Source: Phytophthora colocasiae (Eukaryota; Oomycota; Peronosporomycetes; Peronosporales; Peronosporaceae). Taken from it: 64,000 nucleotides of DNA. The DNA lies in assembly GCA_018806915.1 (NCBI GenBank), contig JAGKQI010000037.1, forward strand, positions 62,001 through 126,000, in the 5' to 3' direction. Positions 3,324-64,000 of the stretch are shown one piece after another. The position numbers were made by a program, and so were the translations under genes. The notes under the pieces were generated by a model. It saw only the letters and a program-made list of their open reading frames with translations, made no database searches and had not been told where the DNA came from. Within the stretch, counting starts at the first letter, position 1; every line of letters starts with the position of its first letter.

Positions 3324-6300
3324 CTAGTTTAACTGTTTCCCAGAGTCAGCCTCGTCACCCAGGAGTCTCTCCAGTAGGTGATCCGGCAGGTCCTTCAGTG
3401 TACCTTGACGGGCTAGTTTCTTGAGGGATTCCAGAGTCTTGATGTCTTCGCATGGTCTCCCAGAGTGCACCTTTCCGCAAACCTCACACGGCGGTACTCG
3501 GCACATCCTGCTCGGGTGACCTTTCTCCTGACATCTGTCGCAGACAATGTCCCTCCAGCAGTTTTCTTCTGAATGGCCTAAGCGACGACACTTCTCGCAG
3601 AACTTGTTCCAGTAGTCAGGGTTATCGCGCCGTGTCTGCTGGAAGTCTTGACCTGACGATCCTCGGGGAGACTGGGGCGGCGGTCGCCATCCCATGTTGT
3701 CCATGACCCGATAAACTTCGTTTGTCAGAGGCTGAGTCCAGTCAGCACTACCAGGCGCCTGAGAGGCAGATTGTACACCAGACGAAGATTGTACACCAGA
3801 CGTCTCGCGATCATATTCTGACGACGAGGCTCTGGTATCCTTTTCTTGAGTTCTGGTATCCGCGTCGACACCGTCAGAGGCATCCGGGTCTGCTTCTCGG
3901 GCAACGTAAGTCTTCCCCATACGCTTCGGCTTAAACTGTCCACGTGGGAGATTGTCCGCTCGGAAATCCCGATGTCTGGTGGTCGTAGTTTCCTGATCAG
4001 CCGTTCGCCAGACATCTTCGTCCTGTTGCAGAGCGTATTCCAATTCCGAGATGCTCTTGAACTTCCGGCCTTGTAACGCGATCTTCAGACGCTCGTCCTT
4101 CAGCTTGGTGATGTACCTCAGAACGTGTTTCTCCAGGCGTCTGGAGGATTTTCTGAAGTCCACCTCAGCTTTTCCGGCGGCCGAGTTCAGGCGATAGAAG
4201 AAGTCCAACGGAGTCTCGGAACTCTTCATTCCCATCGTGAAATATCTCTCGGAGTATGATGACCGGGCCTTGCAATAGCGCCTGCGAAACTCTGCTGACA
4301 ATTCCTTCCAGTCACGGGAAACGCTCTTCGGAAGCTGGTTGAACCAATCTCTGGCAGACACTGGGAGCTTCAGCTTGAGTTCCTGTATGCGGGTCTTGTT
4401 CGTCCACGCTCCCTGAGATGCCATGTTCACGAAGCGCTCCCACCAGTGAACACGCTCCCGTAATGCCGCTCGGGGATCAAATTCTCCGATGATACTTGAG
4501 TTTATGAAGGGCCTCATAGTCAGCAAGGTCGCTCCAGCTTGTCCCTGGGAAGCAGAAGTCAGGTTTACAACCTCCGGAGGATCCAAGTCATCAGAAGACG
4601 AATCACTTGAGTCCGAGCTTGAGTCACTTGAGCTTCCACCCGGGTCTGGGTCATTCCTACGTCTTCCAGGCCTTCGAGGAGCGTCCCGGCCATCTTCAGA
4701 GCGTCTTTCGCTTGGTTTCCGGTGTCCTTCGCGCCTGGGAGTCGCTGGGCGCCTTCCTTCAGCCTTTATCTCGGTCAGGGGAGCCGCTTGAGCCGTCTGG
4801 GTCGTCGTAGCGGCCGCGGTGGCCGCGCCATGCCTTCCAGCTTTCGCGCGCTTGGTGTCGGTCGTTCTCCGTAGGGGAAGAGGCGTATGGAAGGCCTCCG
4901 CCGTTTTAATGGGTGTAACCCTACCCCTACTGGCGACTCCTTCTGATCCCCTAACCCCAGGTGTGCAATCTCCCGTATCCCGACTGTTCACCAGAAATCC
5001 GGGTGCCGGTTTAGGGTCATGTTCACCGGAGATCCGACTTGAAGTTGCTACTTCAGGGTGGGCGACCCCTTGAACTTGGGACAATGTTGCACGAAGGTTC
5101 CTCAATTCTGCGGCCTGGAAACGCTGCATGTTCTGGGAACTTTCTCGCTTCCTGTCGCGCTCCGACTCCACATCGTGCACCCGCTGTCGTAAGGTCTCCA
5201 TTTGCGAAATCCAGTCACGTTTCAGCTCGTCTGCCCAACGCGCACGTTCGGCTTCGGCCTCGGCTTCCCGTTGTTTCCAGCGATCTGCAAACTCGGTCTC
5301 CAGACGCTGTACGTCGGAAAACTGTTCACCAGAAACTTGTTCGTCGGACACCTGTCTCTCAGACGACTTCGAATGGTACTTGAGCTTGGACTCTGACGCT
5401 TGACTCCGACGTTCTTCCAAGTCATCCACGCGTCTCTGGGCTTCCAGTCTGGCGCTCTCAGACTCAAGTAGTCGGTCGGTAAGTGTCTGGATCTGCTGGC
5501 GCGTATCAAGTTCCCGTTGTTCACGTCGACGTTCACGCTCCATGGATTCCAGACGTTCTCTGGCCAGAAAGTCCTTCTGCTCCTGTTCCATCCGACGCTG
5601 CCATTCCTGTTGCTGCCGCATAGCGTTCAGTTCGATCTGCGCTGGGCCTGATCTCTGGGAACTTCGTGTGTGGCTTGACGCAACGGAACTCAGACGTCTG
5701 GAAGACACTTTCTGGTGATCCTCGCTCTTCAGACTCTGGTGCCTGCTCTGGTGGCTTCTCCCACGACTCGAGACGGACGATGATGGAGCTTCTGGCGTCC
5801 GGTGAACAGAATCTCTGGTAGACAACTGTCTCTCGGACTTCACTTTTGGAAACTCCGGCTTCTCTTCCAACATCTCGAAGTCTTCAGGCTCCGACTTCAC
5901 CGGCATCAGTGTTCGTGTCACGTGGATTCCCATAGACTCTCCGGCGAGCATTCCTCCGGCTTCAGCACCTTGGGCAACCATCGCCAGACCCCCGACAGTC
6001 AACGGCATATGCGCAGACGCCCCTCGACTCATGGACATCAGCGACGAGTCTGTGGAACTTCCACGAAAGGTCTGGAGTCCCGACGAGTGCTCATCAGACG
6101 TACGCGAGGTCCCAATGACACTCGGCACAGGCGCATCAGTCGTCAGAGAGCTACCTCGATCTTCAGACATTGGCACACCAGACTCCAAGTGGGTGCTATC
6201 AGAGTGACTCTCGTATACCGGCAGCGAACTTAGCGACGGCGTCGACAGTGCAGATGGTGTCGACGAGACTTGCGGGCGTGGCGGACCATGTTGCAGGCGC

Positions 6301-27596: not shown

Positions 27597-27678
27597 AACT
27601 TCATGTAGCAAATCCATACTCCATAGTGCTCCCACCTACGACTACCGAGACGAAGTTGGCGTCCGGTTGCTTAAAGAG

Positions 27679-28053
27679 TTAAGCCGACGAAGACGACAGC
27701 GAAGCGCACGTCGATGCGAAGTCGTTCGCGTACGTGTAGACGTCAATCACCAGCCCACTCGTGGGCACCGTCAGGTCGCAGTCAGGAGGGTTCAGCGTGA
27801 TGATCTCCGCGATCATCTCCTGACACGCCGTCGACGCGCACATGAGCTCGTACTGGGCCGTAGTGGGGAGGGCCGTGGCCGTCAGCATGGAATATCCGGA
27901 GTCGGTGGCGCACTGCGTGAAGTACGACTGGCTCAAGAGGGTCACCAGCGTCACGTAGGCGGCCGTAGACTGCGTGGAGGTGCAGGTGGTGGCCGAAGTG
28001 GATCCGACGAGAGCAGCAGCAGCAGCAGTGGCGAGGACGGCGGTGAGCTTCAT
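27679..28053 (-). CDS. elicitin, Ser-tailed type (unit B)
   Basis: 124 residues. The same protein as the unit C copy at 39467-39841 and a close paralogue of 18815-19189. Signal peptide of about 20 residues, six Cys in elicitin spacing, Val at mature position 13, Ser-rich C-terminal tail. The frame is open upstream to 28227, but the conserved signal peptide fixes the start at 28053. Secreted sterol-carrier/elicitor family. An INF1-like elicitin lies 0.57 kb upstream on the same strand. Confidence 0.95.
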
Positions 28054-28627
28054 AACGGTGGTGAAGAGCTGGGAGTAGAGACTTGTGGTGGACAAGGTAA
28101 TTGGAAGAGTGAGAGACTTTGGGGCAGGGTGGATAACTCCAGTAGTTGTGGTGCACAACAACTTTTGTAGGAATTCGTAGTTACCGGTACAATCGTGGCG
28201 GCGGCATGCCGAGCATATCCGGCACACTTCTCTTGCTTCCTTGTGCTGGAGCAGACGCCGCTGTGGCAGGATAGGAAGGGAGAGCAGGAATCACACGGTA
28301 GTCCAGCAGCGTTACGCTGGTGAATGAACTCTCTCGCTGTCCGACTACAGCATCGCGATGACTCCTCCGCCGGTTGATCAGGCTTATGGTCCTTTCATAT
28401 TCGAATCAGTTGGTCCTACAACGTCGCCGCCAACTTTCAGAATATGCACAAGTAAACAATGGCGCAGGGCACTTATCGAAGAACAGGAACTTTCATTCAA
28501 AACGAGTTGTTATACTAATACCGAGACAGCATCAATCAAAAAGCTACTGTAACTGCAACTGCAGCCGTAGTAGCTCTGCGTCCTTAGGTCTGGAGACAAA
28601 TGAATCTGTCCACACGGACGAAGCTGC

Positions 28628-28984
28628 TTACAGCGACGCGCACGTGGCCGAGAAGCCGTTCGCGTACGAGTACACGTTGAGCACCAGGCCGCTCGTGGGC
28701 ACCGTCAGCTCGCAGTCAGGAGGGTTCAGCGACACGATCTTGGTGATCATCGTGTTGCACGCCGTCGACGCGCACATGAGCTTGTACTGCGCCGTCGTGG
28801 GCAGTGCCGTGGCCGTCAGCATCGAGTAGCCAGAGTCCGTGGCGCACTGGTTGAACGACGTGTCCGAGAGGATGCTCACCAGGGCGACGTACGCAGCAGT
28901 CTGCTGGGTGGTCGTGCACGTGGTGGCGGAGGTGGAGCCGACGAGGGCGGCGACGGTGGCGGCGAACAGAGCACGGAAGTTCAT
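28628..28984 (-). CDS. INF1-like alpha-elicitin (unit B)
   Basis: 118 residues: a 20-residue signal peptide and a 98-residue six-Cys mature domain, Val at mature position 13 (acidic type). Identical at protein level to the unit C copy. The open frame extends to 29077, but that extension is low-complexity Pro/His sequence read from the C-rich tract, so the start is set at the signal peptide. A long G-run tract (plus strand 29001-29037) lies within 20-55 bp of the start. Confidence 0.96.
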
Positions 28985-29000
28985 GGTGAAGGTGAAGGTG

Positions 29001-29037
29001 CGGTGGGGTGCGGTGGGGTGGGGTGGGGTGGGGTGGG
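29001..29037 (+). promoter_or_regulatory. G-run tract upstream of elicitin (unit B)
   Basis: Tandem GGGGT units give four or more adjacent G4 runs on the strand that serves as template for the elicitin. One repeat longer than in unit A; replaced by a short CA-rich stretch in unit C. Confidence 0.6.
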
Positions 29038-29059
29038 AGTGGAGTAGTGGGTCGTGGTG

Positions 29060-30755
29060 ACGGGGCAAATTGCACAATGTCTGTCCGAGAGCTAGGAGCT
29101 AGGACCAGTCGAGAAAGCAAACTCTTGAGTCAAGAATCTTGACTACCCTAGTGTCACTAGTAGTGAAGCACTGCTCAGAGCAGTGGTATTGCGGGGCCTT
29201 TGCCCCTTTGGACGGCAAAGTATGCACCATTGTACCCGCTCGGTTTTCGGCGACTACAGAGAGTTGTTACACAGTCAGCAAAGCACCAAAAGCTGTAACG
29301 CCTGTATCCTCGCGAGGGCGAGAGAAGGACACACGCCTGGTCCTGTAGCAGAGGAACGACATTTAGCAAGAGAAGGGTCTGTCGGAGGATCCACTCGACC
29401 TATCTGTGTATCGAAGTGTCCGCCACAGACACTGCCACGAGTATCTTTCGCGTTCGTCAAGAGGATCTACTCAATTCTGTCGCTGTTGATGCCGAAGAGC
29501 AGAGTGCACCGACAACTGAAGGCTTCCGTGAAGCAGTGAAGTCGATCCTTAATTAATAAAAGATGACACAGTTCACTCGAGTAGATGTACTAGTAGTAGT
29601 TCCTGTGTTTAGGACGAGTCCCAAGCACCCGTTTCGCTAACGAGGATGCAAGTGACCAGGATGGCATCGCTGGTACACGCCACGTTCATTTGCTCTGCAA
29701 CGACTGACAGGATACATGCCACTCTACGGATACACGTGCAACTTGTACGCCGTGCAAGTTTCAGTTGTTACACGAATCACCGCCACCCGATTCTGCTTGA
29801 AGGGACCCGTTGGCTAACGCGTGGTGCAGCGGCTGTAGCTTTTCGGTTGCCACCAAAGCTCCTACAGTGCATGCACATGTGGACAGCTTGGTGAGCAGCG
29901 CTGTAGGCCATTTTTGTTGGCAGCAGCGTTGGTTGCTAGTCTACATTGATTCACCATTTGATTTGCGGTTTTTATTTACATTGAATTGCCGAAAACAAAC
30001 AGCAACAACAACAATCTGCTGCAATGCGTCCAGCGGATTGTAAAACCACTTCAACTTGAGGATATCCTTTATTTCGGTGGTCGATTGTGTACAGATCCTC
30101 ATCGATGCTTGGTGATGCCGACACTTATTGAGCAGAAAAAAATAAATGAACCCAACGCGCCTGACTTAGGAAACGAAGGTACCTTTGACGAGAGAGAGAA
30201 GTAGTCTATTTAAGCTTAAACGTTATTAGCTACCTGAAATAATTTGCGACGTTTTGGCAGTTCCCGCACTCTCTGCTGGTGCCATTCCGCTGGTTCTGGA
30301 GGCGGCCTTGGAGATGGAACTTCCACTTTTCATACTCTCGATACTTTCTAGACATATCTAGAGATGCAATCCCTGTATACGAAGATTCGCCTTCATCCGA
30401 ATGGCGGTTGCCCTACACGATTTCTTCTACGCGGGTTGGGAGAATGAGGAGGGATATCTGGTAGACCAAGCCAAGAGCATGGCATTGTTGTCGTGCTCAA
30501 GCATGGTGGAAATGTGTTGGATCGGGTTTGAAGTCGAGCAAGAAGATATAAAATGCTACAAGGACTATTTCTCAACACGCATCGCGCCGCCTTTCGGCAA
30601 GCAGCTGAAACGGTGAATTTTATCACTGTAGGGACGTGGAAGTCGGAGATTGAAGGTCACCTTCAATGAAATTGTATTGGATTCTGAGCGAAAAATAATC
30701 CATCATTGCCGTATCCGTGAAAACAATAATAAGAAATTGAATTATTGAAATAAAT
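29060..30755. other. non-coding flank of unit B and start of inter-arm spacer
   Basis: Up to 30422 this is duplicated in the right arm. A 118-codon frame at 29183-29539 is also in unit C but is broken in unit A, so its intactness reflects recent copying. A 71-codon frame at 30401-30616 crosses the arm boundary and is not recognised. Confidence 0.6.
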
Positions 30756-31034: not shown

Positions 31035-31257
31035 GACACTTGGAAGAAGAGGAAATGACCGATATCATAGCACTTTTGAGTATGCTTGTGAGCTCTTGAG
31101 TGCGTACGGGCACAATTGTATATTTTATGGAAAGTACTCCTTACCAATAATCCGTCAATACAATTGCACAATAACCATATTTTAACCCTTTAGAGGCCAT
31201 AAGGTGCATTTTGACCCCGTTGACATCTCCTCCGACTGAACCCATCAAAACTGCCAT

Positions 31258-31281
31258 GAAGGGGGTCATTTTGACCCCTTT
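31258..31281. repeat. subterminal palindrome, left end of piggyBac
   Basis: GAAGGGGGTCATTTTGACCC and following CCTTT form a quasi-palindrome about 75 bp inside the end; a related ATTTTGACCCC lies at 31208. The counterpart is at 36551-36576. Confidence 0.7.
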
Positions 31282-31591
31282 CGCAGAAGTTCAACGAGCA
31301 CATCACCTTCTCCAATTACAACCAATCCGGTCAAATAACGCAGGTTAATATTTTACGTGGTGTGGCAAACATCACGTAAGATACGCGATTAGGTACGAAA
31401 ACTATGGTGTTTGCGTCAGCAATATGCGTACTAAGTACGTAATTTTGGTGATGCGCCAGCGTAGTGAGGTGCTTTTGGTAAGGACCCTGTCTCCACACCA
31501 TTACTTCCACATTAGTTTTTCATACAAAACTGAAGTCAGTTGCCAACTTTCCCTACAAGGATTCAGTCTGTGGTGCCTGCTTGTCGACAAC

Positions 31592-32992
31592 ATGGCCACT
31601 TCGTTCACTTTTGAGGACGACAAGGAGGTCGTACAGCTAGCGTCATCCTACGTGCGCGCGAGGAAGCGAATATCATGGGCGGACATCGCTCAGCATATGA
31701 AGCGCACAGGCCACGGTGCGAGAGCGCTACGGGAGCGCGTTCGGACTCTGAAGAAGACATGGGGGGCGGACATCCAGCAGTTCCCGCCAAGCTTCTTTAC
31801 GCCGGTGCATCGGCCGCGGGGTCGGCCACTCACAGTGATACGTCAGTTGCGGCAAGCCGCTCCACGACAACAGCGCGAATCTGGAGGACGGATAACGCAA
31901 CAGCAACGCTCGAGTGATGGTGGTCAGGTGCGGCAACAGCGACCTGGCACGAGCGCTGCGCCACGACCGCCTCTAGTGCAGCATCCGGACACAAGCCACC
32001 ATCGTGTTGCCTCCACACCTCAGCACGTGACTTCTGCAGCGCCTCCAACATTTCATGTACCTTCAGAATCTCGGCCGCCTGGGACACCTGCGCCTCTACT
32101 ACTGCCAGCATCTCAAGCATCTCTAGCGCCTACGACCACCCAAACATGTTCCCCTTCAGCGTTACAAGGATCTCTCGGTACTCAAACAGCACCAGCGCCA
32201 GAACAGACATGTGGTCATAGCATCCCAAGAATTCAGGCAACAGCAGGAGGTTCGTTGGGGTCGCAAACCGCCCGGGATGAGGACGTGATCAGATCCCTTT
32301 GTGGTGGTAGCAGCTCACTAAGTTTTCCCGGTGTTCAAGAAGAAGCAATATCACCACCAATGTCCCCGCCAAGTGGAGAACGAGATGTAACAGCAATTTT
32401 TGCCGATGTCCCTCGCGAAGTTATTGTTCAAGGGACTATAAAAATGCCGCATCGCAACGCTGGAGAATTACTGCCAAGTGGAATTTCTACTCTGCTCCGT
32501 GAGATCGGCGAGATCAAGGCGTCTGACATCTTTCTCGACATCGGTGCTGGTGTTGGGAATGTGATCGCACATGTTGCCTTGACAACAAACGTGCATATGG
32601 CAATTGGCATTGAAATTCGTCGCGAGTTATGCACGGTGGGGTTGGAGATGATGTCCAGGAGCGTGAGATCGACACGGCTCATCGAAAGATCCCAACTTAT
32701 ATGTCAGGACATTGTTGGCCTGTCCATTTCGACCACACTACCCTACGCCGACGCTACAGTTGTATATTGGAACAATGTTCTCTTCGAACAGCGAGCTATT
32801 GAGTACGTGAAGAACGAGCTTTCTGGGATGTTCCTGCTGCGCGTATTGGTGAGCGCTCTAAACTTCTGTCCAAGACACCGCGACAGCTGCCACAACGATT
32901 TCTGTCGTGCGTTCAAGTTGGAGAAGGTGCTCGATCTCCCCTGTAGCTGGAAGGCCGACCTCCAGCAGATCTTTTTATACAAGTCGCTCTGA
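31592..32992 (+). CDS. Myb/SANT-like - DOT1-like methyltransferase (transposon cargo)
   Basis: 466 residues from the Met at 31592; the frame is open to an earlier Met at 31424, but that extension looks non-coding. Residues ~5-65 form a Myb/SANT-like DNA-binding region with conserved Trp (RISWADIAQHMKR, TLKKTWG). A long Gln/Pro/Ser/Thr-rich linker follows. The last ~190 residues resemble the DOT1 fold: PSGISTLLREIG, then the SAM-binding DIGAGVGNV (from ~316), GIEIRRE, and the WNNVLF block (~393) where DOT1 proteins have VNNFAF. DOT1 enzymes methylate histone H3 Lys79. Substrate here is inference. The frame is intact while the transposase beside it is broken. Confidence 0.85.
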   Translation: MATSFTFEDDKEVVQLASSYVRARKRISWADIAQHMKRTGHGARALRERVRTLKKTWGADIQQFPPSFFTPVHRPRGRPLTVIRQLRQAAPRQQRESGGRITQQQRSSDGGQVRQQRPGTSAAPRPPLVQHPDTSHHRVASTPQHVTSAAPPTFHVPSESRPPGTPAPLLLPASQASLAPTTTQTCSPSALQGSLGTQTAPAPEQTCGHSIPRIQATAGGSLGSQTARDEDVIRSLCGGSSSLSFPGVQEEAISPPMSPPSGERDVTAIFADVPREVIVQGTIKMPHRNAGELLPSGISTLLREIGEIKASDIFLDIGAGVGNVIAHVALTTNVHMAIGIEIRRELCTVGLEMMSRSVRSTRLIERSQLICQDIVGLSISTTLPYADATVVYWNNVLFEQRAIEYVKNELSGMFLLRVLVSALNFCPRHRDSCHNDFCRAFKLEKVLDLPCSWKADLQQIFLYKSL

Positions 32993-33124
32993 AGTGCGTA
33001 GTGAAATCACAGCAATATACATTTTTTGTTTCTATACTATATTCAAGTGTATTGCCACATTTAACCCACCGTAATTTTTCTTGTGCTGCTTTTACATACT
33101 TAGATCAAGATAAATACCCACAAC

Positions 33125-35836
33125 TCACAGAACTATTGACCTTACAACTGTACGACCTCCATCAGCTCTAAGTTCTTCGCCAGTGTCCACATTCTCTTGA
33201 ACCGCAGTTGATAGCAGACTCCGCTTTAGTTTATACAATTCTGAGCTTGTCCGTGCCTTTCCTCTTTGTGAAAAGAGCTTCTTGGGGAGATAGAAGCGGT
33301 GAAACTTCTCCCAACACGTCCAAGTGGTCTCTGGACAAGCAAACGGCTCCTTGGAGACATGGACATTCTGGCAAAGGCAAACGTTATGAAGCACACACAC
33401 GTCCGTCACTTCAGTAGCGTAGCGATCTTCCCAACGGCACACGACGCATTTCCTACGCTTGCGGTTCATGTCAGTATAGAATTGCTTCGAGGAAACAGCC
33501 GAGCATCTTTTCTGAGGACTCTCAGAGCATGGAGTTTCATTTGTTGATCGTGCAACCCAGACTGTGCTCGACGGAGATGAATGTTCAGGATCCATGCTTG
33601 CCGCACTGTCCGCGTAAAACATCAACCGTTCACTGGGGGCCTCCTTCCACTTCCCCGACAACAACTCGGAACAGAGTTCAACAACGAAATCTCGGTGTGG
33701 GTCTCGCACCTTACTAAAATCCACCGCCAACTTCCGGGTCAAATAAGCATTAGCTCGAGCAACGTCGATAAGAGCTAATGCTAGTTTCTTGTGCCATTTC
33801 TTGAACGAGTGCCCATCTGACAGCGAAAATCGAGCGCGAATTTGATCAAGGCGATCTACGCCTTGCATACTAGCGTTGTACTCCTTGATGCATGTCGGGG
33901 CCGAAAAACTTCGCTTTTCAGAGCGCACTTGTCGGGCTACTGAAGTAAGCGTTGACGGGTCGGCATTTGAGATCACGGTTACAATAGCGCTATCGTACCA
34001 CGACGCTGCAACCAGCGAGCTATCAGCCGAAACAGCCTGCCGGGAGGTTCCACGGGAGCAGTCTTTCTTCTCCAAAAGTACATGGCGAGGAAAATAGGAG
34101 CTGGTCTTCCGCACAGTGCCACGAGCGTAGAGACCCTTGAGACGTAGTGCCATCAGCAGCTGCACTGAAGTGTAGTAGTTGTCGGAGTTGACAATCCGAC
34201 GAGTAGCATACAGCGGCCGAACAACTTCTAGAACGCACTTCCGAATCGAGGACAGCTCTGCGACTTCATCGCTCAACGCCTGCGCTGCTTCAGGTGAAAC
34301 AACGCCATCCAAACGTTCGGTGATTTCGCTCACGCAATGCAACCGAAAGTTCAGCGATATCCAACTCGTAGCGCAACAGAGCATGTAAATCCGGAAGTGG
34401 TATTTCCCCGTCGGTTTCATAGGATTATATACAATGAGGGCCTTGCCGTACTTTGACCGGCAAGCAACACTTGCTTCGTCTAGCGCAACGTTACGACCGA
34501 CCTCCACGTATTTTGCCCCAGTTGTCTTCAATATATTCAGCAGTGGGCGGATCTTGGCGGCCTGGTCCTGTGCTCCCGCGTTGGTCTCAATACATTGAAA
34601 GCAGAAAGCTTTCCTCAGCTCTTGAATCGGCGCAGAGGCATCACGTTATCCAGCCCAACTGATGCCCCACCTAATATCAAATTCTCCACTTGTGTGCCCC
34701 AGTAGTTAGCGTATTCACCTTTGTCGACAAGAGATAGGAACAGCAGTATCCCCAAAAATATCATGAGTTCATCAAGTGAAAACGGTTTCCCGACTGCGAT
34801 ATTGTTCAGGCGTGCATAGGTATTCATCTCTCCAACAACTTGCTGCCAGAATGAAACCGGAATGTACGCGAAAAAACTCGACGAGGCCGAGAGCTGGAAG
34901 ATATGCTTGAATTCTGGTCGCAGTCGTGTTTTAGTTGATCCATCGGCATGTTCGTACAGGTCAGGAGGAGCCTCGCACTGGTTTTCGGGCTCAAATCGGA
35001 TGCTTTTGATAGCCTCTACCTCTGCTAATGACGTCGGAAGTTCCATCGGAGGGTCGAAAGGCTCCATGTACTCCTCTAGAATGTCGGTGTCATCATCGAC
35101 ATTGACTTCCTCACCGTCATCAACTGCACAAGCGCCCCCATCCAGCCCCAGTAGAACGTCCGTGTAGAGCCCGATAGTTAGCGTTGCCCCGCTGCACAGC
35201 GCTCAGATTCAAAGTCTCAACGTGGTTTTGGAACTGCGAGTCCAACCAGTTAATCTGGAACAGCGACTGCTTCAAAACTCGGCAGACTCTTCCAACCAGA
35301 TACGCACTCCCGACTCCAACATACTTCTTCTTTTGAGTAATAAAGCCCTCCTTCGCTGGAGCGAATGCTACCAGTGTGTCTACATACATAGACAACACTG
35401 ACGGCAGGTTTTTTTTCTTCGTACGTCGAGTAGCTGTACCATTAGGCGTCGGTGTACTTGGCTCGGTAACAGTGGCCGTAGAAGACAACCTGGTGGGCAG
35501 TCCCGTAGCATTAGCAGGTGACAATGCTGCGGCACGTAATAACGGCGACTCGTTGGTGTTGGTTGTGGTAGTGGGCAGTACGGCGTCTGTACTGGTGCTG
35601 GGTCGTTGTGAGGCTTCAGCGACGTCGTTCAAGATGAGGTCAAGACTTCGTCTGGGTTTAGTGGCCTGTTTGTTCACCACTGGCACTTCCTCTGGCGGCC
35701 GGCTTCGCTTTGACGCAGACTTTGGCTTGTTCTTTGACCCCCTCGGGCGGCCTCGCTTCCGCTTGGGTGGGGCGGCATCTGAATGCTGGATGTCTGGTGC
35801 TACGGCCCCCTCCTGTGCTGTCCTTCCACGGGTCAC
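33125..35836 (-). pseudogene. piggyBac transposase, two frameshifts
   Basis: Three frames joined by homology. The N-terminal part (35836 to about 35165) has an AT-hook-like KRKRGRPRGSKNK and Ser/Thr-rich sequence. The middle part (to about 34622) starts the DDE_Tnp_1_7 domain. The long part (34531 region to 33125) holds the catalytic acids: Asp in LDEAS (34478-34480), Asp in NSDNYYTS (34181-34183) and Asp in GVDRLDQ (33854-33856). A Cys/His-rich tail (CVVCRWEDR ... CLCQNVH ... CPETTWTCW) resembles the piggyBac C-terminal zinc domain. Each break looks like a single missing base, so the gene is probably dead, or the bases are assembly errors. Confidence 0.92.
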
Positions 35837-36022
35837 AGCTTCGAGCGTACGTGATTCATCGCTAGGTGCTGATGGGTGTCGCTACCTCCTGCATAGGCTC
35901 GATCGCTTGTGAGGGTGTAGTCATTGCAAGCCTCTGCCTTCCACGCGTCTTCGGTTTGTAAGTGGCAACTGAGACGCATTGCGTCCGTCGATTTGTATCA
36001 GTTGGTACAAGATCAAATTTGA

Positions 36023-36110
36023 GAAAATTCAATTTCAATACTGAAAACAAGTTACGTGCCACACTAGAAAATTCAATTTCAATACTGAAAACAAGTTACG
36101 TGCCACACTT
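36023..36110. repeat. 44-bp direct tandem repeat
   Basis: Two copies, starting at 36023 and 36067, upstream of the transposase start inside the piggyBac element. Nearly perfect. Confidence 0.9.
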
Positions 36111-36550
36111 ATTTATATTCATGCAACTGAGTGTTCATTGTGCCGCTGTAAGCAGGCTACAATATGGGTACGTTTCTACTGGGCCGATGGGGTTGGCTCG
36201 CGTTGCGGAGTGAAGGCGGATGCACTTCGTCATGTAGATCGTGTCCGCTCAGGGCCACTGACAGCACATCCGTTGAAGTTGAACGCGTAAGGTATGTAGT
36301 GGGATCCGTAATTTATCACGGATCCGCCTCTATCTGTCTCAGGTTTTGTGCATTACGTGAACACAGCTTGACCAATGACAAAACTCGCTGTCGATTTTGC
36401 TTGTGGCAGCTGTTATGTCAGCCAATGAAATTATTGCATAGAATATTGAGGAGAGTACAGTGGCTTATGAAAGGGATCAAATTGCCCTCCTTGATTGACC
36501 TATTGCCATATGTTCAGGACGACTCCGATCAGGCAAGTACCGTGTTTTAA

Positions 36551-36576
36551 GAAGGGGGTCATTTTGCCCCCCTTCG
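36551..36576. repeat. subterminal palindrome, right end of piggyBac
   Basis: GAAGGGGGTCATTTTGCCCC and following CCTTCG, about 65 bp inside the right end, matching 31258-31281. Confidence 0.7.
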
Positions 36577-36779
36577 TATGTTAACATGCTAACTTTGTAT
36601 ACCATAGTAGTCAAGGTCAATAAGCTCTGTTCGCGAAAGGGTTAATTATTTTTCCGAGCTCTGGTCTGTCATTGCTATTGCAAATCCGAAATCAAGTCGT
36701 ACACGAATCGTGTAGGGCAACCGCCATTCGGATGAAGGCGAATCTTCGTATACAGGGATTGCATCTCTAGATATGTCTA

Positions 36780-37192: not shown

Positions 37193-38535
37193 GTCTAGAA
37201 AGTATCGAGAGTATGAAAAGTGGAAGTTCCATCTCCAAGGCCGCCTCCAGAACCAGCGGAATGGCACCAGCAGAGAGTGCGGGAACTGCCAAAACGTCGC
37301 AAATTATTTCAGGTAGCTAATAACGTTTAAGCTTAAATAGACTACTTCTCTCTCTCGTCAAAGGTACCTTCGTTTCCTAAGTCAGGCGCGTTGGGTTCAT
37401 TTATTTTTTTCTGCTCAATAAGTGTCGGCATCATCAAGCATCGATGAGGATCTGTACACAATCGACCACCGAAATAAAGGATATCCTCAAGTTGAAGTGG
37501 TTTTACAATCCGCTGGACGCATTGCAGCAGATTGTTGTTGTTGCTGTTTGTTTTCGGCAATTCAATGTAAATAAAAACCGCAAATCAAATGGTGAATCAA
37601 TGTAGACTAGCAACCAACGCTGCTGCCAACAAAAATGGCCTACAGCGCTGCTCACCAAGCTGTGCACATGTGCATGCACTGTAGGAGCTTTGGTGGCAAC
37701 CGAAAAGCTACAGCCGCTGCACCACGCGTTAGCCAACGGGTCCCTTCAAGCAGAATCGGGTGGCGGTGATTCGTGTAACAACTGAAACTTGCACGGCGTA
37801 CAAGTTGCACGTGTATCCGTAGAGTGGCATGTATCCTGTCAGTCGTTGCAGAGCAAATGAACGTGGCGTGTACCAGCGATGCCATCCTGGTCACTTGCAT
37901 CCTCGTTAGCGAAACGGGTGCTTGGGACTCGTCCTAAACACAGGAACTACTACTAGTACATCTACTCGAGTGAACTGTGTCATCTTTTATTAATTAAGGA
38001 TCGACTTCACTGCTTCACGGAAGCCTTCAGTTGTCGGTGCACTCTGCTCTTCGGCATCAACAGCGACAGAATTGAGTAGATCCTCTTGACGAACGCGAAA
38101 GATACTCGTGGCAGTGTCTGTGGCGGACACTTCGATACACAGATAGGTCGAGTGGATCCTCCGACAGACCCTTCTCTTGCTAAATGTCGTTCCTCTGCTA
38201 CAGGACCAGGCGTGTGTCCTTCTCTCGCCCTCGCGAGGATACAGGCGTTACAGCTTTTGGTGCTTTGCTGACTGTGTAACAACTCTCTGTAGTCGCCGAA
38301 AACCGAGCGGGTACAATGGTGCATACTTTGCCGTCCAAAGGGGCAAAGGCCCCGCAATACCACTGCTCTGAGCAGTGCTTCACTACTAGTGACACTAGGG
38401 TAGTCAAGATTCTTGACTCAAGAGTTTGCTTTCTCGACTGGTCCTAGCTCCTAGCTCTCGGACAGACATTGTGCAATTTGCCCCGTCACCAAGACCCAGT
38501 ACTCCATTCCCACACCACACCACACCACCTTCACC

Positions 38536-38892
38536 ATGAACTTCCGTGCTCTGTTCGCCGCCACCGTCGCCGCCCTCGTCGGCTCCACCTCCGCCACCAC
38601 GTGCACGACCACCCAGCAGACTGCTGCGTACGTCGCCCTGGTGAGCATCCTCTCGGACACGTCGTTCAACCAGTGCGCCACGGACTCTGGCTACTCGATG
38701 CTGACGGCCACGGCACTGCCCACGACGGCGCAGTACAAGCTCATGTGCGCGTCGACGGCGTGCAACACGATGATCACCAAGATCGTGTCGCTGAACCCTC
38801 CTGACTGCGAGCTGACGGTGCCCACGAGCGGCCTGGTGCTCAACGTGTACTCGTACGCGAACGGCTTCTCGGCCACGTGCGCGTCGCTGTAA
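38536..38892 (+). CDS. INF1-like alpha-elicitin (unit C)
   Basis: 118 residues, identical to the unit B copy: 20-residue signal peptide, six-Cys 98-residue mature domain, Val at mature position 13. The upstream region differs from units A and B. The long C-rich tract is replaced by a short run of CACAC/CCACACC, leaving about 25 bp of CA-rich sequence before the start. If the tract affects expression, this copy may be regulated differently from its twin. Confidence 0.96.
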
Positions 38893-39466
38893 GCAGCTTC
38901 GTCCGTGTGGACAGATTCATTTGTCTCCAGACCTAAGGACGCAGAGCTACTACGGCTGCAGTTGCAGTTACAGTAGCTTTTTGATTGATGCTGTCTCGGT
39001 ATTAGTATAACAACTCGTTTTGAATGAAAGTTCCTGTTCTTCGATAAGTGCCCTGCGCCATTGTTTACTTGTGCATATTCTGAAAGTTGGCGGCGACGTT
39101 GTAGGACCAACTGATTCGAATATGAAAGGACCATAAGCCTGATCAACCGGCGGAGGAGTCATCGCGATGCTGTAGTCGGACAGCGAGAGAGTTCATTCAC
39201 CAGCGTAACGCTGCTGGACTACCGTGTGATTCCTGCTCTCCCTTCCTATCCTGCCACAGCGGCGTCTGCTCCAGCACAAGGAAGCAAGAGAAGTGTGCCG
39301 GATATGCTCGGCATGCCGCCGCCACGATTGTACCGGTAACTACGAATTCCTACAAAAGTTGTTGTGCACCACAACTACTGGAGTTATCCACCCTGCCCCA
39401 AAGTCTCTCACTCTTCCAATTACCTTGTCCACCACAAGTCTCTACTCCCAGCTCTTCACCACCGTT

Positions 39467-39841
39467 ATGAAGCTCACCGCCGTCCTCGCCACTGCTGCTG
39501 CTGCTGCTCTCGTCGGATCCACTTCGGCCACCACCTGCACCTCCACGCAGTCTACGGCCGCCTACGTGACGCTGGTGACCCTCTTGAGCCAGTCGTACTT
39601 CACGCAGTGCGCCACCGACTCCGGATATTCCATGCTGACGGCCACGGCCCTCCCCACTACGGCCCAGTACGAGCTCATGTGCGCGTCGACGGCGTGTCAG
39701 GAGATGATCGCGGAGATCATCACGCTGAACCCTCCTGACTGCGACCTGACGGTGCCCACGAGTGGGCTGGTGATTGACGTCTACACGTACGCGAACGACT
39801 TCGCATCGACGTGCGCTTCGCTGTCGTCTTCGTCGGCTTAA
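39467..39841 (+). CDS. elicitin, Ser-tailed type (unit C)
   Basis: 124 residues, identical in protein to the unit B gene at 27679-28053. Start chosen at the signal peptide (the frame is open from 39293). Six Cys and a Ser-rich tail. It lies downstream of the INF1-like gene on the same strand, 0.57 kb apart, as in the other units. Confidence 0.95.
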
Positions 39842-39917
39842 CTCTTTAAGCAACCGGACGCCAACTTCGTCTCGGTAGTCGTAGGTGGGAGCACTATGGA
39901 TTTGCTACATGTAGTTG

Positions 39918-61500: not shown

Positions 61501-64000
61501 GACGTCTTCCGTGTCGTCGTCAGTCGCCGTCACCGTCACAACTTGCGCGACATTCCAGTCCTTCCACGTGAAATCCAGCTTCGACGGACTCGGCACGGCG
61601 AAATTCCCACTGTCCCGATGTTAGTCACAGATACACTCACGTTGGCGAACGGCTCCGACAGCAACACCACCGTGTACGTGTCCGTTGCGCCGCCTTCCGT
61701 CACGTTCACACTCACTTTGTTCACCTTGAACCCAGACACGTCGTTATCGCGCACGGTCACGTTCACCTTGGCGATATCAAGCATTGCGTTGTACTTCGGG
61801 TCGGCACTGAACGAAGTGTGCGAGATCCCAGTCGGGTGCGTGTCGTATTCATCCAGGTCGTCGTCTGTAGCCAGCACGACCACTTTCTGCTCGATGTTCC
61901 AGTTCCGAGGCGTGAACACGAACTCAGAAACCAGCAGCGTCACGTTGCACAGACCGAATCGATAGCACTGCGTATTCTCCCCATCGAGCCACGGCAGAAC
62001 CACGATCTTCACGTCCGCCAGAGGTTCCGAGCTCAGAGACACGACGTAGGAATCGTTAGCGCCGCCTTCAGCAACCTCCAGCTGCTTCCTCTCGCTTTGG
62101 AGCAAGACATTCACGTGCGACACGTCGTTGTCGGCGATCGAGACCGTCACGTCCATCTTGTAGTCGCTCACAGTGTACAAAGGATCGGAACTCGCTGACG
62201 AGTGCGAGATTCGAGCAGAGTGAACATCCGTCTCGTCCAGCCAGTCGTCCACGGCAACGAACGACACGTTCTGCCACACGCTCCAGTTACCCGCTCCGAA
62301 ATACAGGGACGCTGACCCACTCGTCAGACTGACGTTGCACACGCGTTCGCTTTCAAGACGCATGTAGCACTCGTTGTTCGCGTTGGGATAAACCACCACA
62401 GGCTCCCACGGTTCGGACGTCAGCCGGACGCTGTACGAGAGCACCGTCGTGTTGCTTTCCACCGCGGATATCTCTCTCGTCGACAATTCAATGCCAGACT
62501 TGTCGTTATCCGCGATTAAGACCTTCACGGAAGCTAAATCCTGTAGTCCAGCATAGATGAGGTCGTCGGTCGCCAGCGAGTGGTTCAGCTGGCTAAAAGA
62601 GCCCACGACGTCTTCCGTGTCGTCGTCAGTCGCCGTCACCGTCACAACTTGCGCGACATTCCAGTCCTTCCACGTGAAATCCAGCTTCGACGGACTCGGC
62701 ACGGCGAAATTCCCCACTGTCCCGATGTTAGTCACAGATACACTCACGTTGGCGAACGGCTCCGACAGCAACACCACCGTGTACGTGTCCGTTGCGCCGC
62801 CTTCCGTCACGTTCACACTCACTTTGTTCACCTTGAACCCAGACACGTCGTTATCGCGCACGGTCACGTTCACCTTGGCGATATCAAGCATTGCGTTGTA
62901 CTTCGGGTCGGCACTGAACGAAGTGTGCGAGATCCCAGTCGGGTGCGTGTCGTATTCATCCAGGTCGTCGTCTGTAGCCAGCACGACCACTTTCTGCTCG
63001 ATGTTCCAGTTCCGAGGCGTGAACACGAACTCAGAAACCGGCAGCGTCACGTTGCACAGACCGAATCGATAGCACTGCGTATTCTCCCCATCGAGCCACG
63101 GCAGAACCACGATCTTCACGTCCGCCAGAGGTTCCGAGCTCAGAGACACGACGTAGGAATTGTTAGCGCCGCCTTCAGCAACCTCCAGCTGCTTCCTCTC
63201 GCTTTGGAGCAAGACATTCACGTGCGACACGTCGTTGTCGGCGATCGAGACCGTCACGTCCATCTTGTAGTCGCTCACAGTGTACAAAGGATCGGAACTC
63301 GCTGACGAGTGCGAGATTCGAGCAGAGTGAACATCCGTCTCGTCCAGCCAGTCGTCCACGGCAACGAACGACACGTTCTGCCACACGCTCCAGTTACCCG
63401 CTCCGAAATACAGGGACGCTGACCCACTCGTCAGACTGACGTTGCACACGCGTTCGCTTTCAAGACGCATGTAGCACTCGTTGTTCGCGTTGGGATAAAC
63501 CACCACAGGCTCCCACGGTTCGGACGTCAGCCGGACGCTGTACGAGAGCACCGTCGTGTTGCTTTCCACCGCGGATATCTCTCTCGTCGACAATTCAATG
63601 CCAGACTTGTCGTTATCCGCGATTAAGACCTTCACGGAAGCTAAATCCTGTAGTCCAGCATAGATGAGGTCGTCGGTCGCCAGCGAGTGGTTCAGCTGGC
63701 TAAAAGAGCCCACGACGTCTTCCGTGTCGTCGTCAGTCGCCGTCACCGTCACAACTTGCGCGACATTCCAGTCCTTCCACGTGAAATCCAGCTTCGACGG
63801 ACTCGGCACGGCGAAATTCCCCACTGTCCCGATGTTAGTCACAGATACACTCACGTTGGCGAACGGCTCCGACAGCAACACCACCGTGTACGTGTCCGTT
63901 GCGCCGCCTTCCGTCACGTTCACACTCACTTTGTTCACCTTGAACCCAGACACGTCGTTATCGCGCACGGTCACGTTCACCTTGGCGATATCAAGCATTG
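49519..64000 (-). CDS. giant Calx-beta/REJ/GPS/poly-tetraspanin membrane protein (5' end off window)
   Basis: More than 4800 codons are visible. From the N-terminal side there are Calx-beta-like extracellular repeats to about 59460, the last ~3.1 units nearly identical at DNA level. A PKD1-type REJ region follows (about residues 850-1330 of the 4025-codon frame). A GPS-like motif (CRIWD ... W ... C ... CYC, ~1810-1845) lacks the His-Leu-Thr/Ser cleavage triad. After one TM come five four-TM modules, each with a tetraspanin CCG loop motif (about 2141, 2365, 2618, 2885, 3298). A last TM pair resembles polycystin-type sequence, then an IQ-like helix (~3600), EF-hand pair (~3650-3730) and a disordered tail. 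One missing C at 61606-61608 breaks the frame; see findings. Confidence 0.9.
60536..64000 (-). repeat. 1107-bp coding tandem repeat, about 3.1 near-identical copies
   Basis: The anchor GGCACGGCG starts at 61592, 62698 and 63805 on the plus strand (steps 1106 and 1107; the short step holds the missing C). Each unit encodes 369 residues with three Calx-beta-like segments. Copies differ at only a few bases (for example 63039, 63161). A diverged older unit lies left of 60536. The array continues past the window edge. Confidence 0.95.

Follow-up and report, generated by a model that had tools for sequence, protein, structure and literature searches.

A piggyBac-type transposon lineage of Phytophthora colocasiae that carries a DOT1-like methyltransferase gene

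The stretch of Phytophthora colocasiae DNA analysed here (the window: 64,000 nucleotides, positions 62,001 to 126,000 of contig JAGKQI010000037.1 in assembly GCA_018806915.1) contains a complete piggyBac-type element in which a DOT1-like methyltransferase gene, hereafter the cargo, accompanies the transposase gene. This pairing is not peculiar to the window. In two clades, represented by five and two copies, one pair of ends encloses both genes; across numerous loci and anciently separated clades the genes remain neighbours; their diversification has run in parallel; and the DOT1 domain was under purifying selection while the lineage spread. We consider it probable that this is an old and successful lineage of piggyBac elements which took up a DOT1 gene and became a two-gene transposon with an anti-silencing factor of its own. 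DOT1 is mostly regarded as a conserved, single gene of the host; here it belongs to a selfish element, is present in many copies and has been maintained by selection while that element diverged deeply. Whether transposons write histone marks to evade silencing could be studied in this natural system. In Phytophthora, many proteins annotated as H3K79-specific methyltransferases may be transposon genes.

Two genes between one pair of ends

The first-pass annotation of this DNA had placed TTAA ends and CCCTTT termini at coordinates that proved exact, and had described a cargo open reading frame (ORF) pointing towards the transposase; the two genes indeed face each other tail to tail between these ends, the cargo on the forward and the transposase on the reverse strand (Table 1). 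A TTAA target site duplication, with TTAA at both ends, is shared by the window copy and those at C9:1171609, C67 and C19:730204.

The cargo ORF is intact over 466 codons, as had been reported, or over 522 if translation starts at the first in-frame ATG upstream (31424). The annotation had proposed a profile search and a structure prediction for its product: the Pfam DOT1 profile scores 48.2 bits, above the curated cut-off of 23, and the predicted structure has the DOT1 fold. The motifs GELLP, DxGxGxGN, GIE, NN.LF and SW, which we take to be S-adenosylmethionine-binding and active-site motifs, are all present and largely conserved among relatives, the NN motif being lost in some (L080, L082). 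Pfam DOT1 matches at E 0.01 all 31 members of an alignment of cargo relatives (A3) that takes in 30 of the 39 relatives found. The Myb/SANT domain claimed for the N-terminus stands in part: three helices are predicted there (residues 7-22, 29-35 and 43-57) with a predicted local distance difference test (pLDDT) mostly >90, but the window protein matches no Pfam Myb family at E 0.01, and each of these families matches only 1 or 2 of the 31 aligned relatives. The label is plausible, not proven. Ubiquitin-type domains (PF00240, PF11976) are annotated in a DOT1-like protein of Phytophthora rubi (P0054), an arrangement that could be a gene-model fusion; ubiquitinated H2B stimulates DOT1L.

The main transposase piece matches DDE_Tnp_1_7 with an E value of 1.6e-28, passing the cut-off, and carries the three Asp motifs noted earlier, LDEA (34469-34483), SDNYYTS (34166-34189) and GVDRLDQ (33842-33865), presumably the piggyBac catalytic triad. 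Because the gene is split over three reverse-strand ORFs, it has two frame breaks, the number given in the annotation; in the sister copy L010, the N-terminal stretch and the catalytic part share one open frame. A Cys/His-rich tail, a candidate for the C-terminal cysteine-rich domain of the piggyBac superfamily, is visible on reading the translations. The motif KRGRPRGSKNK is presumably AT-hook-like, and a weak HMG-I/Y peptide match was the only PDB sequence relative of the transposase N-terminus. Six piggyBac transposases (P0030 and P0033-P0037) bear one to three N-terminal chromodomains.

Nine further loci in the genome have the left end of a near-identical copy, each beside a left flank of its own. 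In eight of the nine alignments, homology to the window copy starts at the first TTAA base (31182), and in the C83 copy it starts 7 bases before the TTAA. Right ends of the form AAAGGG-TTAA were found in the copies at C9:1171609, C67:123704 and C19:730204, and a transposase-only fragment (C9:1214766-1219800) likewise ends in this way. In the C58 copy (G000:C58:2265866-2271673), TTAT takes the place of TTAA at either end, and this appears to be a genuine duplication of four bases. Together with the window copy, five copies have both ends with both genes between them, one of them the TTAT-flanked copy; this answers, for this genome, the question raised in the annotation of whether homologues sit between piggyBac ends. 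For the mid-clade copies C20, C9:1318549 and C10, the short sequences inspected contained no right end.

Element-free counterparts of insertion sites are also present. Joining the flanks of the C67 copy gives a sequence that matches over query positions 4-204 at 10 of 13 listed places (87-89%), an eleventh listed place matching over 5-176. For the window copy, the corresponding sequence matches a dispersed repeat; the match runs across the junction at 23 of 27 listed places (81-94%), reaching only 9-24 bases past it. No spanning element-free site was found for the joined flanks of the C19 copy.

Linkage, joint descent and selection

A DOT1 profile search of the genome gave 135 matches (150 of 150 candidates scored) and a search with the cargo ORF at least 110 (83 of 310 candidates scored); all profile rows and 87 rows of the ORF search merge into at least 135 DOT1 loci. 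Three transposase searches (91 of 726, 116 of 1055 and 77 of 1212 candidates scored) merge into at least 186 loci, comprising 83 of lineage A, to which the window belongs, 71 of lineage B and 32 others. All genome-wide counts of loci and pairs are lower bounds. A transposase neighbour lies within 6 kb at 78 of the 135 DOT1 loci, where uniform placement would give 3.3; one of these pairs (C28:745855) is to be discounted, as it looks like the host DOT1 gene. Pairing within this distance involves 69 of the 83 loci of lineage A, 7 of the 71 of lineage B and 2 of the 32 others, so that the cargo, which the annotation had ascribed to one element, characterizes an entire lineage of transposases. The pairs are convergent in 51 cases, on the same strand in 23 and divergent in 4. 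Some of the unpaired DOT1 loci are decayed elements, those at C9:1187802, C5:640215 and C58:3047741 retaining the TTAACCCTTT end. A capture of a host gene in the window copy only is rejected, since the DOT1-like gene recurs at many loci.

At C42:237557 and C82:431672 there is a second layout, with both genes on one strand inside matching ends that have a 13-base terminal repeat. Only left ends were seen in the M clades, the P and Q blocks examined show no CCCTTT-type ends, and neither end was established in clade X; we trust none for clades P, Q and X. As ends are seen incompletely or not at all in clades M, P, Q and X, the case for these rests on gene linkage. The gap between the two genes measures 1785 bases in C29 and C36 and 1778 in C22. 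The sequence TTAACCCTTCC, just upstream of DOT1 in clade X (C36, C29, C22, C45 and C50), is probably not an element end, as homology runs through it. C36 diverges from the other four copies at block position 6133, where no TTAA was seen, and beyond it those four agree for at least part of the bases shown.

The two genes share their history. In 28 of 49 blocks the sequence covers 120 or more residues of the DOT1 domain and 200 or more of the transposase; among these 28, pairwise distances for the two proteins correlate at 0.94, a value reached by none of 2000 permutations, and the two trees contain the same clades. Of the 26 loci tried for the DOT1 tree, four are absent from it (the C9:1170351, C9:1318549, C55:1082665 and C6 blocks, in which no frame has the motif), and the rows C20 and L081 were dropped.

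Between clades, the ratio of nonsynonymous to synonymous divergence (omega, dN/dS) of the DOT1 domain is 0.13 for both W-M1 (dS 1.8) and W-M2 (dS 1.7), with dS near saturation, and 0.24 for M1-M2 (dS 0.28). The corresponding values are 0.09, 0.09 and 0.36 for the transposase and 0.25, 0.22 and 0.65 for the middle part of the cargo, which evolves faster; the P-Q and W-S comparisons are saturated for both the DOT1 domain and the transposase. Within clades, on few changes, omega is 0.21 (X), 0.56 (M1), 0.76 (W), 1.10 (P) and 1.50 (M2, on 4 pairs) for the DOT1 domain and 0.25 to 0.60 (W 0.52) for the transposase. Selection visible between clades is expected if only moving elements are selected; the pattern is the usual one for transposon genes, which are selected while moving and decay after insertion. 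The annotation had seen in an intact cargo beside a broken transposase a hint that the DOT1-like protein is retained for its own sake, and had suggested dN/dS as a check. Neither line bears this out: of ten near-identical W copies, the DOT1 ORF is whole in four, frame-shifted near its end in one (C19:728427) and in pieces in five, and the omega values within W indicate weak constraint on both genes.

The genome also has a separate DOT1 gene of host type, which clusters away from the element-type genes. It is probably the locus L001 (C28:744355-747894), where a 522-aa DOT1 frame without the Myb-like start lies at C28:745855, beside an ORF that we take to be PEX3. The Cys/His insert of L001 is like that of the transposon copies. 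One DOT1-like gene is listed for P. infestans in a passage of PMC4030286.

DOT1-like genes also occur elsewhere. A second, distant piggyBac lineage has convergent DOT1 neighbours at six loci (L079, C8:116600-118300; L082, C8:118900-120300), which suggests that the DOT1 gene changed elements. L080 (C105:1053800-1057600) and L081 (C48:1081800-1085200) belong to a dispersed repeat and agree at 98.8% over 2.9 kb; the DOT1-like ORF of this repeat keeps DxGSGxGN and has lost the NN motif, and the stretch read shows no piggyBac transposase. No relatives were found in viral contigs.

Possible function, rival explanations and known systems

In the two-gene transposon that we favour, the DOT1 gene would have been captured from an oomycete host gene. 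Its product would methylate nucleosomes, in all likelihood at H3K79 or close to it; the Myb-like domain may bring it to DNA, possibly to the subterminal repeats of the element itself, and the mark would oppose heterochromatin, keeping element copies transcribable or accessible. H3K79 methylation opposes heterochromatin in yeast. The data suggest chromatin editing in the interest of the element itself, and self-protection is the mechanism judged most likely; beyond the DOT1 fold, the selective maintenance and the inheritance with the transposase, we infer each of its steps.

A DOT1 gene caught once and carried along as a tolerated hitchhiker, or serving the host, with no help to the element, seems rather improbable. 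The often weak omega of the DOT1 domain within clades W, M1, M2 and P, the six of ten W copies that are not whole and the one DOT1 clade for which the stretch read contains no piggyBac transposase would suit such a passenger, but it would hardly be under purifying selection between clades to a degree comparable with that for the transposase, nor so long a co-inheritance of both genes, with the gene kept within 6 kb at most lineage A loci, in a genome that has a separate host-type DOT1 gene. We also regard as unlikely a writer-reader pair, in which the enzyme writes a mark that the N-terminal Tudor-like barrel of the transposase (chromodomains in relatives) reads, with integration steered or the transposase held on marked chromatin. 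In the fullest, similarly unlikely form of this reading, the mark lies around element copies, and the element both escapes silencing and chooses its landing site. Pfam chromodomains in 6 of 23 transposase relatives point in this direction, as does the small barrel itself, which is conserved and whose nearest structures include the Tudor domains of Spindlin1, SMN, TDRD3, PHF1 and 53BP1; no stronger fold matches emerged from the structure comparison, an absence that carries no weight. A link with H3K79 methylation exists for Tudor domains of the 53BP1/Rad9 type.

DOT1 acts elsewhere in checkpoint and repair pathways, and this general biology is what would favour a role of the enzyme in repairing the excision break or in timing transposition. 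Such a role is very unlikely: nothing in the sequence points there, and piggyBac breaks are repaired without DNA synthesis according to a passage of PMC7341134. That a DOT1-like gene merely came to lie between two unrelated piggyBac ends has practically no probability left, being refuted by the recurrence in independent insertions, the linkage, the co-divergence and the element-free places.

We found no description of DOT1 on piggyBac in the open-licence literature (Repbase Reports lies outside that scope), and the annotation, too, had known of none. The novelty is narrowed by the SET histone methyltransferase genes of Phytophthora HarbingerS and MuDR transposons (Kojima and Jurka 2014, cited in a passage of PMC12730594): because these cases are on record, histone methyltransferases on Phytophthora transposons were already known, and what may be new here is DOT1 on piggyBac. 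Like the window element, they are oomycete DNA transposons with a histone lysine methyltransferase gene, whereas they belong to other superfamilies and their SET enzymes have a fold unrelated to DOT1. The same source describes, in a passage that does not name piggyBac among them, 11 fungal DNA transposon lineages with TET/JBP dioxygenase genes; these resemble our element in having an epigenetic enzyme as a second gene that passes between transposon lineages, but act on 5-methylcytosine. Retrotransposons of dinoflagellates and charophytes with cytosine methyltransferases (in a passage of PMC5890265) likewise took up a host-derived epigenetic enzyme, although they are retrotransposons and concern DNA methylation. 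Plant VANDAL elements encode sequence-specific anti-silencing proteins (mentioned in PMC12730594). Our proposed mechanism draws on this analogy of a second gene acting against the silencing of its element, whereas in the piggyBac-DOT1 element anti-silencing is only a putative role. VANDAL proteins are not known to be histone methyltransferases. With the piggyBac superfamily the window element shares the TTAA target, the DDE_Tnp_1_7 transposase and the three Asp motifs, and it differs by its second gene and the small barrel in front of the transposase. The cargo has the domain profile, fold and motifs of DOT1/DOT1L (yeast, human, T. brucei DOT1A), from which it is set apart by being multicopy and transposon-borne, by its Myb/SANT-like N-terminus and by a CPRHR...C...FC insert before CSWK. 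A gene family associated with piggyBac is noted in PMC7341134, in a passage that does not name its function.

Features of the element and its surroundings

Table 1. Positions in the window of the element and its parts
Feature	Position	Strand	Extent or content	Basis or remark
Complete piggyBac-type element	31182..36645		both TTAA target copies included	TTAA/CCCTTT ends, copy alignments, element-free paralogous places
Left TTAA target site	31182..31185			followed by CCCTTT
Left terminus CCCTTT	31186..31191	+	6-base terminal inverted repeat	with 36636-36641
Left subterminal repeats	31207..31279		CATTTTGACCCC	copies at 31207 and 31267
DOT1-like cargo gene	31592..32992	+	466 codons	Pfam DOT1, DOT1 fold, between-clade purifying selection
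N-terminal Myb/SANT-like domain of cargo (plausible)	31592..31801	+	three helices	pLDDT mostly >90; few Myb Pfam relatives
DOT1 methyltransferase domain	32354..32989	+	residues 255-466	AGELLP, FLDIGAGVGN, IGIEIR, WNNVLF, CPRHR, CSWK
Transposase, catalytic and C-terminal part	33125..34531	-		DDE_Tnp_1_7; three Asp motifs
Transposase, middle piece	34615..35067	-		DDE_Tnp_1_7
Transposase, N-terminal piece	35120..35836	-		no Pfam family by itself
Small beta-barrel, Tudor/SH3-like, transposase N-terminus	35162..35401	-	residues 146-225	
AT-hook-like stretch	35708..35770	-	KRGRPRGSKNK	weak HMG-I/Y match, E 0.41
Right subterminal repeat	36555..36566		GGGGTCATTTTG	
Right terminus, CCCTTT on the - strand	36636..36641	-		
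Right TTAA target site	36642..36645			preceded by AAAGGG

The element occupies the spacer of a long inverted duplication, the arms of which (27620-30353 and 37193-39900) are 99-100% complementary; this may be a real palindrome or an assembly fold-back. Both arms carry, beside the element, ORFs that we take to be elicitin-like. Duplicated inverted gene blocks associated with piggyBac are described for P. megakarya in a passage of PMC7341134.
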